From a virus: a stretch of 20,071 bases of DNA. A program made the translations under genes and the position numbers. Positions 13,358 through 14,285 of this stretch are shown piece by piece; the stretch's first letter is position 1; each line of letters opens with the position of its first letter. The notes under the pieces were generated by a model that had not been told where the DNA came from, made no database searches, and saw only the letters and a program-made list of their open reading frames with translations. The stretch lies in the IMG/VR virus record IMGVR_UViG_3300025138_006887, positions 1-20,071 of that record, one strand, 5' to 3'.

Positions 13358-13460
13358 TGGCTCTGGGGGTAGGATTCGAACCTACAAGGTTAAATATATT
13401 GCAGTACACTCAACCATACGGTTAACAGCCGTACGTGTTTACCAATTTCACCACCCCAGA
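13358..13460 (-). tRNA. tRNA with GUU (Asn) anticodon and long variable arm
   Basis: The minus strand folds as a full cloverleaf of 103 nt: acceptor TCTGGGG/CCCCAGA, D stem GTG/CAC with AAATTGGTAAA loop, anticodon stem TACGG/CCGTA with loop CTGTTAA (anticodon GTT), T stem GTAGG/CCTAC with loop TTCGAAT, discriminator G and encoded CCA. U1-A72, G73 and the anticodon loop agree with bacterial tRNA-Asn. The D arm (TGGTGAAATTGGTAAACAC) instead resembles tRNA-Leu. Between anticodon and T stems are 31 nt, where about 5 are normal for Asn; within them GGTTGAGTGT can pair with ATATTTAACC (with three G-U pairs), giving a type II arm longer than in Leu or Ser tRNAs. It starts 6 bp after the stop of the synthetase-like gene. 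Confidence 0.88.
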
Positions 13461-13466
13461 ATAATT

Positions 13467-14285
13467 CTACTTGTCCAATGCGGCTATCATACGTGTCATG
13501 CCGATGCCGCCGCCTACTCTTGGAAAGAAATCAAACTTTAAAAATTCTTCTAGTTCTGCCTCTACACGATCTTTACCAAACAATTTAAACAATAGTTCAC
13601 TATAAGCACCATCTGTAATTGTGTGAAATGTATCTCTCATTAAATCTACATCTGTTGAACGTTCTGCTGAACCTATTGTTTCCATACCGCCTAGTATTAC
13701 ATCTATCTTTTTACTAAAACTTTCACCTGGGTATCTGCTCATATTCCAAAATGGTGATGTGAATTCTGGAAAGTCTGTAATCATTGCAGTTTCAAATTCA
13801 TTAAACATTTTACCTTCTTCATCGGCAGTCATTTCATAATCAGTAGGTAGTCCATAATGTCCTTGCCATTCTGCATATGTTCTTTCTTCTGGTTTTGGAA
13901 ATCCTAAGTATTCTACTAATTCATATTCCATTGCTTTAAGATCATCTATGTTGCCAGGCATTTCAAATTCAAACATTGGAAAGATTATATCGTGTCTTCC
14001 GGGTATTGCATTTGGCTCTTGTCTGTAGGATGTAGAGACACAAAAAAAGCCCTTTGCTGAGGGCTGACTTAGTAATTCATGTTCTAACCACATCTGGCCA
14101 GTTTGTGGTAGTGGCCATACTTGGCCTGCGTAATTGTATGTTGCTACATTGAATGGATCTTCACATGCGGCTAGTATGCTCAATCTGTTTTGTGTGTGTA
14201 CTTCAAGAAATCCTTTTTCCAAAAAAAATGACCTTAAAAGGCCAACTGTCTCTGTGAATTTGCTTGGGTCTATTAGTTGCGTCAT
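13467..14285 (-). CDS. Stand-alone class II aminoacyl-tRNA synthetase core (AsnRS/AspRS-like), 272 aa
   Basis: All three class II motifs are visible: motif 1 around LLRSFFLEKGFLEV (16-29), motif 2 YRQEPNAIPGRHDIIFPMFE (87-106), and motif 3 GGGIGMTRM (258-266, Arg265). LPQTGQMWLE (59-68) and the METIGSAERS block (201-210) resemble the amino acid site and the GExxxGxxR region of AsnRS/AspRS. The protein is only the catalytic core: the N-terminal OB-fold anticodon domain is absent and it ends 6 residues after motif 3. Known cores of this kind include archaeal asparagine synthetase A and the LysRS-derived EF-P modifier EpmA. AAAGGAAAG precedes the ATG. The adjacent Asn-anticodon tRNA suggests a link to asparagine or aspartate, but tRNA charging is not shown. 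Confidence 0.82.
   Translation of the reverse strand: MTQLIDPSKFTETVGLLRSFFLEKGFLEVHTQNRLSILAACEDPFNVATYNYAGQVWPLPQTGQMWLEHELLSQPSAKGFFCVSTSYRQEPNAIPGRHDIIFPMFEFEMPGNIDDLKAMEYELVEYLGFPKPEERTYAEWQGHYGLPTDYEMTADEEGKMFNEFETAMITDFPEFTSPFWNMSRYPGESFSKKIDVILGGMETIGSAERSTDVDLMRDTFHTITDGAYSELLFKLFGKDRVEAELEEFLKFDFFPRVGGGIGMTRMIAALDK

Follow-up and report, generated by a model that had tools for sequence, protein, structure and literature searches.

Why would a phage encode the catalytic core of an aminoacyl-tRNA synthetase directly beside a tRNA gene with an asparagine anticodon, and what would the two do together? The question is raised by a 20,071-nucleotide stretch of viral DNA (IMG/VR record IMGVR_UViG_3300025138_006887), which we refer to as the window. 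The original prediction held that a class II core lies 6 bp before an aberrant Asn tRNA (anticodon GTT, G73, CCA) and that the two genes act together, either as an orthogonal charging pair or as an asparagine supply plus an Asn tRNA. We find that the pair is conserved, and the gene context suggests that the core represents a synthetase-derived enzyme of pyrimidine synthesis common to bacteria and phages, which is the strongest claim we make.

The synthetase core and the tRNA in the window

The core is encoded on the minus strand at 13467–14285 by an open reading frame of 272 amino acids that starts with ATG, and a gap of 6 bp separates its stop codon from the tRNA gene at 13358–13460 (minus strand), as had been predicted. 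The protein is matched by Pfam tRNA-synt_2 (E = 7.2e-16) and by the phage family PHROG_29758, annotated as "unknown function" (E = 9.9e-127); in an NCBIfam profile search it comes near no model cut-off. The proposed comparison with AsnRS, asparagine synthetase A (AS-A) and EpmA profiles reaches no curated threshold, since the window protein scores 18.2 bits with the AsnRS model TIGR00457 (cut-off 342.6) and 16.1 bits with the AS-A model NF005055 (cut-off 389), and does not match the EpmA model at E 0.1. The AF2 model (pLDDT 88, pTM 0.87) has the catalytic half of AsnRS as its nearest fold (Foldseek E = 1.2e-17). It aligns with residues 236–529 of human AsnRS (8h53) at Z 25.9, and with AspRS, GenX and archaeal AS-A at Z 24.8, 23.3 and 22.4, respectively; sequence identity to AsnRS is ∼20%. 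Because the model covers only the catalytic part of AsnRS, the anticodon-binding domain, N-terminal in AsnRS, is absent, in agreement with the claim made earlier.

Hidden Markov model (HMM) alignments place the motif Q64-M-W-L-E68 (14082–14096) over Q-L-Y-L-E of AsnRS, the AsnRS-like Q-x-Y-L-E form, rather than over the Q-L-Y-K-Q of AspRS (Q-x-Y-K-Q). The motif 2 region (residues 87–108, 13962–14027), supported by the same alignments and by conservation, includes E106, which stands opposite a Glu in AsnRS and an Asp in AspRS, while R209 (13659–13661) aligns with an Arg of both enzymes and is likewise conserved. The motif 3 region, R256–R265 with the string GGGIGMTR (13491–13520), is read from the translation and from its conservation. 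All of these lie on the minus strand. We take the positions of Q64–E68, E106 and R209 to form the side-chain pocket of AsnRS/AspRS, and the AsnRS-like residues found there make asparagine seem more likely than aspartate as the amino acid bound.

The tRNA is a type II, tRNA-Asn-like gene, as indicated by an Rfam match, sequence reading and covariation. The covariance-model check that had been suggested for this region returns an Rfam tRNA match at 13361–13460 (minus strand; 58.4 bits, E = 1.7e-12), with the anticodon GUU at 13424–13426, G73 at 13361, CCA at 13358–13360 and a variable region of 31 nt with a paired stem at 13386–13416 that is seen in both the Rfam match and the family alignment. 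ARAGORN calls no tRNA at this locus, probably owing to the 31-nt variable region. The anticodon loop is CUGUUAA, and with U33 and A37 retained the window's own tRNA could decode.

Neither gene flanking the pair (14352–15494 and 12745–13341, minus strand) has a significant family match in Pfam, PHROG or NCBIfam. Elsewhere on the minus strand, the window encodes a ClpA-like AAA+ ATPase (5802–8171, PHROG_4871) and an adenine phosphoribosyltransferase (17598–18149; NF002636, 162 bits, cut-off 125).

A conserved pair with a relaxed decoding loop

Among the matches listed, the viral set comprises 168 loci (167 fetched and the window), 164 of which include the synthetase stop codon; these counts are of samples, and some loci duplicate one phage (P-SSM7, for example, occurs twice). 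A tRNA lies within 450 bp of the synthetase in 156 of these 164 loci, among the matches listed, which supports the view that the two genes act together. Four of the 156 have TTCAA T loops, and 152/164 are counted without them. The tRNA is also found in four phage-like MAG contigs, and the spacing is 4–12 bp in 154 of the 160 positives. The cultured carriers are the Prochlorococcus phages P-SSM7, P-SSM2 and P-SSM5. A scan with one exact tRNA pattern, covering the P-SSM7-like group only, returned at least 80 loci, 72 of them with the synthetase directly upstream; of the remaining 8, seven are on contigs that begin within 100 bp and one has ∼113 bp of upstream sequence. Chance adjacency is ruled out by the 156/164 loci, the covariation described below and the tRNA-pattern scan, and the synthetase core and its tRNA are a real conserved module.

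Conservation of the adjacency is nevertheless incomplete, and a synthetase with no tRNA nearby had been named as an outcome that would speak against a joint function. Eight viral loci have no tRNA within 450 bp: L004, L005, L086 and L087, which are of the huge-phage type, L065 and L069, and two whose contigs end 31 and 84 bp past the gene. In addition, L393 and L394, which are 84% identical to the window enzyme, carry PyrD directly 3′ of the synthetase, and neither has a tRNA within 450 bp.

The four loci of the huge-phage type represent huge phages of 735 and 484 kb and two related contigs, whose homologues are 45–48% identical and have no adjacent tRNA. A scan of viral sequences with the protein of the 484-kb phage as the query found no relative, and the plasmid search gave no match. 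The record LR756501 has five tRNA-Leu calls in ∼0.6 kb near 194.5 kb. Just 3′ of the synthetase in L171 (4866–4885), the sequence TCCGGGG-TC-CCCCGGA-G-CCA corresponds to an acceptor stem, G73 and CCA with the tRNA body missing, and is either what remains after a deletion or a minihelix. Type II GUU tRNAs also occur in a second, distinct synthetase lineage (L175 and L245, support 96). In L175 the tRNA overlaps the 3′ end of the synthetase by 18 nt, with a DHODH-like gene downstream, and in L245 a diverging copy 210 bp downstream, which falls outside the 104 distinct sequences considered below, is missing the first two acceptor pairs and G73. Finally, the tRNA-Asn annotated in P-SSM2 (AY939844.2, 164094–164179; L002:6825–6910) falls within another gene, and the tRNA sequence is actually located at 162083–162168; the annotation may derive from GU071092.1, in which the tRNA is at 164090–164175.

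The tRNA family was collected with a finder that requires T8-G9, a D-arm pattern and at least 6 acceptor pairs. In 39 aligned tRNAs, 99.7% of the cells of a 23-pair cloverleaf are paired, two-sided changes occur in 18 of the 23 pairs, and covariation is 0.704 compared with 0.199 for shuffled sequences. The extent of pairing rules out an artefact or a pseudogene. Across 104 distinct tRNAs, U1-A72, G73 and GUU are invariant (104/104), and the variable region is 11–38 nt; the window tRNA, with 31 nt here, does not have a short type I loop. The family covariance model was run on carrier genomes and phages, and tRNA-Leu is the call for 11 of the 12 top matches fetched, the twelfth being uncalled, so that the body of the tRNA looks Leu-derived.

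The anticodon loop behaves differently. Position 37 is occupied by U in 87 of the 104 tRNAs, by C in 5 and by A in 12, so that 92 have a pyrimidine there. At position 33, 96 have U, 7 have C and one has G, which leaves 8 tRNAs without U33. Comparison tRNAs from the same phage loci have U33 in 56/58 and a purine at 37 in 57/58, with 5 of the 58 being ARAGORN miscalls over the type II GUU tRNA itself. Passages of a review (PMC9976931) give G73, G34, U35 and U36 (and A37) as bacterial Asn identity elements and U1-A72 as conferring amidation of Asp-tRNA-Asn. Taken with the invariance counts, these elements suggest that the features retained are those for becoming Asn-tRNA, while those decaying (U33 and A37) would be the decoding ones. 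The word "aberrant" is apt for the type II body and, across relatives, for the pyrimidine at position 37, but it does not describe the loop of the window tRNA, which has U33 and A37. C33 or G33 with an intact GUU occurs in several distinct tRNA sequence groups (L011–L014, L052, L094, L126, L127, L132 and relatives).

Cellular homologues and pyrimidine genes

A genome scan for cellular homologues yielded 130 relatives, and 80 of them were retained. The carriers are CPR bacteria, Bacteroidota (including the isolate Aureispira sp. CCB-QB1), Pasteurella atlantica, Midichloriaceae, Dependentiae and archaeal MAGs, and the clearly cellular homologues have 51–61% identity. Between 159 tRNA-linked and 71 cellular proteins, 67 columns are ≥98% conserved in both sets, among them C41, Q64, L67, E68, R88, E90, H98, E106 and R209; because the homologues come from one scan with the patterns SILAACED and PQTGQMW, columns ∼36–43 and 60–66 are partly imposed. 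Variable motif positions in the 71 cellular proteins are Y87 (F in 11) and D43 (N in 6). In a quick, midpoint-rooted tree of 109 rows, 35 phage-plus-tRNA rows and 2 tRNA-less phage rows fall on one side of a branch with support 98, and the main phage-plus-tRNA clade sits inside the cellular family, beside pyrF-linked enzymes. Just outside it under this root are L171–L173, followed by P. atlantica, a Rhodospirillaceae MAG and Midichloriaceae (supports 90–96).

The tRNA finder detects no such tRNA in the fetched loci of the cellular homologues, and a pattern search of 13 carrier genomes likewise returns no comparable type II GUU tRNA. We also considered a similar tRNA elsewhere in the carrier genomes and rejected it, as the GUU pattern gave 2 matches in 15 genomes or records compared with 4 for the reversed control, and the 12 covariance-model matches fetched are the 11 tRNA-Leu and 1 uncalled sequence noted above; these searches could miss a type II GUU tRNA of other sequence, and the 12 are drawn from many covariance matches. 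AsnRS is over its curated cut-off in 8 of the 13 carrier genomes, which rules out the enzyme as the cell's own AsnRS and indicates that it is not simply a missing one. Several cellular homologues match the EpmA model weakly, far under its cut-off.

Pyrimidine genes recur around the cellular homologues. Neighbor clustering identifies PyrE- or PyrEF-like genes at 23 of 77 loci and PyrD-like genes at 20, and by tblastn pyrD, pyrE or pyrF is in the fetched flank of 27/72 cellular loci; the flanks of the other 45, many of them CPR, contain no pyr gene. Pfam and NCBIfam confirm the order synthetase–PyrEF fusion–PyrD in L243, PyrEF and PyrD near the synthetase in L184, and in L207 PyrD upstream on the opposite strand with PyrF and a phosphoribosyltransferase (PRTase) downstream. 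In the Patescibacteria locus L188 (1008–4837), a PyrE-like PRTase, an amidohydrolase and a gene that looks like ArgH by sequence reading precede the synthetase, possibly a variant operon.

CarA and PyrB are each found in 0/13 carrier genomes, the single PF02729 match being an ornithine carbamoyltransferase (737 bits), and PyrC (TIGR00857) is over its cut-off in none. Weaker PyrC-model matches (E ≤ 0.001) occur in 6 of the 13, four of them at 198–261 bits against a cut-off of 279, and the other seven have none. PyrD is present in 11 and missing from 2. All 14 control genomes are positive for the four families CarA, PF02729, PyrC and PyrD, with PyrC over its cut-off in 11. In one bacterial family, sampled as 120 genomes with 3 carriers, PF02729 is absent from 8 genomes, including all 3 carriers and 5 of the 117 noncarriers (Fisher p = 2e-4), and CarA is absent from 6, including 2 of the 3 carriers (p = 0.006); the third carrier, G092, which is not among the 13, has CarA.

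Similar arrangements occur in some phages. The window has no pyr gene in its 20 kb, and among the matches listed 8/168 phage loci have a pyr gene in the flank, which extends to at most 4 kb and is often shorter. L024 and L025, from the window's group, contain a DHODH-like gene (PF01180 in L025, 1.6e-16), the synthetase, the tRNA and a mini PRTase that resembles the PyrE candidates of Midichloria and Pasteurella and has no Pfam or NCBIfam match. The same order as in L025, PyrD–synthetase–tRNA–miniPyrE, is seen in L391 and L392, and L424 and L425 have synthetase–tRNA–PyrF–PyrD. PyrE is ≤0.6 kb from the synthetase in L106, L111 and L164, where it exceeds the TIGR00336 cut-off, and in L128, where it is assigned by similarity. 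When the L025 DHODH is taken as the starting point, the synthetase is present in 12 of 44 viral loci, one being the query's own contig, and absent from 32; with the mini PRTase as the starting point, it is present in 4 of 8 loci, two being the L024 and L025 contigs (L399 and L434 are the L025 contig again, and L436 is the L024 contig again).

P-SSM7, P-SSM2 and P-SSM5 each encode PyrE, that of P-SSM7 scoring 131 bits with TIGR00336 (cut-off 106.8). As a query against 50,697 phage records, it found 8 further matches: six unannotated marine single-cell fragments of 4–66 kb and one record each from a huge phage and a faecal phage. The synthetase matches in phage records include none of these eight. 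This type of PyrE is found in 4/6 large contigs of the P-SSM7 group (one match has an internal stop), in 0/12 contigs of the window's group and in 0/2 huge phages. Other PyrE types occur in other phages that do not have the synthetase–tRNA pair. Overall, a pyrD, pyrE or pyrF neighborhood is present at part of the cellular and phage loci and is absent from the window, and this gene context, found separately in bacteria and in phages, suggests the link to pyrimidine synthesis.

Possible function and relation to known systems

We give an even chance to the reading in which the AsnRS-derived enzyme makes dihydroorotate or a precursor of it, with the dedicated tRNA as asparagine donor. The core would be an AMP-forming enzyme of de novo pyrimidine synthesis that in cells replaces CarAB-PyrB(-PyrC) and supplies PyrD, PyrE and PyrF with dihydroorotate or the compound directly before it. 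In its most economical form, the reaction would be asparagine + bicarbonate + ATP → dihydroorotate + AMP + PPi, since dihydroorotate can be viewed as asparagine with one carbonyl across both nitrogens, and asparagine would supply both nitrogens of the ring and every ring carbon except one. TsaC offers a chemical parallel, forming threonylcarbamoyl-AMP from Thr, bicarbonate and ATP. Ring closure could be a single step for an AMP-forming enzyme that holds asparagine and activates the asparagine carbamate, which would account for carriers that are without CarA and PyrB yet mostly have PyrD. From these patterns we infer the reaction and its substrate, that phages acquired the gene, and that the tRNA acts as donor.

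In phages, the tRNA with its Leu-like body would be loaded with asparagine by host enzymes or by the core itself. In a host with the indirect pathway, enzymes that read GUU, G73 and U1-A72 would charge and amidate the phage tRNA, and the phage enzyme would then empty the Asn-tRNA, making it a dedicated asparagine donor. Pyrimidine synthesis in the infected cell would thereby be freed from the host's regulated first steps, from free asparagine and from the translating tRNA-Asn. The tRNA cannot be strictly required for the reaction, as the cellular and a few phage homologues lack it, and would count where free asparagine is scarce. A study of asnB/pyrB2/pydC in picocyanobacteria (PMC10119275) reports just a fifth of Prochlorococcus HLII genomes to have a cluster containing asnB. 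The fullest version, tRNA-dependent pyrimidine synthesis in which asparagine on a dedicated, largely nondecoding tRNA is the substrate for dihydroorotate and the tRNA is a metabolic cofactor in marine phages, is a tentative proposal, and we lean against it as stated.

That the core instead charges its own type II tRNA with asparagine through the acceptor end and long arm, feeding phage protein synthesis, appears unlikely. Such a private pair would fit the strict adjacency, the covarying and functional cloverleaf, the AsnRS-like pocket, the U33 and A37 of the window loop, and the occurrence of the tRNA only with the synthetase wherever upstream sequence sufficed (in the P-SSM7-like group, among the matches listed). 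However, it is difficult to reconcile with a pyrimidine at position 37 in 92/104 tRNAs and loss of U33 in 8/104, against the near-uniform loops of neighboring phage tRNAs, with cellular homologues that share the pocket and have no adjacent tRNA, with AsnRS over its cut-off in 8/13 carriers, or with the pyrimidine gene context in cells and phages. Thus, the orthogonal pair for decoding that had been put forward is not the best reading. The other option, asparagine supply plus an Asn tRNA, comes closer, except that the apparent destination of the asparagine is pyrimidines and not translation.

Less likely again is a pyrimidine enzyme accompanied by a tRNA that has no part in catalysis, such as a regulator or an anticodon-nuclease decoy travelling along. 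The tRNA-less enzymes of cells and some phages and the decay of decoding features agree with this, but the invariance of the Asn charging and amidation determinants (104/104) would go unexplained, as would the fact that the tRNA is not seen without the synthetase in the P-SSM7-like group among the matches listed. Improbable as well is an AS-A-like enzyme making free asparagine from aspartate and ammonia with the tRNA as a separate helper: although the core stands alone, has the fold of archaeal AS-A (Z 22.4) and weakly matches AS-A HMMs, it is far under the AS-A cut-off (16 against 389 bits), has L-E and E in the pocket where AspRS has K-Q and D, and would leave the absence of CarA and PyrB and the pyr operons unexplained.

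Were the dihydroorotate-forming enzyme with its tRNA donor correct, the first steps of pyrimidine synthesis, usually held to be near-universal, would have a second route through a relative of a tRNA synthetase, present in CPR bacteria, Bacteroidota, intracellular alphaproteobacteria and marine phages. This would explain UMP production in carriers without CarA and PyrB, turn a "tRNA ligase" without an assigned function into a viral metabolic gene, and provide a clear case of a tRNA retained for metabolism rather than decoding. Even the cellular part alone would name a missing enzyme of nucleotide metabolism. In the literature searched (titles and the openings of abstracts, with few subscription papers or bioRxiv preprints), neither the pair nor a pyrimidine route free of CarAB and PyrB is described.

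The pair resembles several known systems and coincides with none of them. The phage tRNA shares GUU, G73 and U1-A72 with tRNA-Asn, but has a 31-nt variable region in place of the short type I loop; it has the type II body of tRNA-Leu, but G73 and GUU rather than A73 and a leucine anticodon. The core is like class IIb AsnRS in its catalytic fold (Z 25.9), motifs 2 and 3 and Asn-type pocket signature, whereas it has no anticodon-binding domain, is only ∼20% identical, scores far under the AsnRS cut-offs and co-occurs with AsnRS in 8/13 carriers. Archaeal AS-A and E. coli EpmA (GenX) are also stand-alone class II cores (Z 22.4 and 23.3), with metabolic or protein substrates, yet the core misses their curated models and has a pyr gene context and a phage tRNA partner. 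It would occupy the metabolic place of CarAB-PyrB-PyrC, upstream of PyrD, PyrE and PyrF, but as one AMP-forming enzyme proposed for up to three steps; the fold of CarAB-PyrB-PyrC is unrelated to the synthetase core.

Aminoacyl-tRNAs serve as metabolic intermediates elsewhere, Glu-tRNA being an intermediate in tetrapyrrole synthesis. The GatCAB route from Asp-tRNA to Asn-tRNA is alike in this respect, with U1-A72 given as the amidation determinant in passages of PMC9976931. Unlike these forms of tRNA-dependent metabolism, the phage system has a dedicated tRNA with a Leu-like body, a relaxed decoding loop and linkage to pyrimidine genes. Finally, PylRS–tRNAPyl pairs a small class II catalytic domain with its own unusual tRNA encoded beside it, much as the phage core lies beside its own; the phage pair differs in its sense anticodon, GUU, and in having cellular homologues with no adjacent tRNA.
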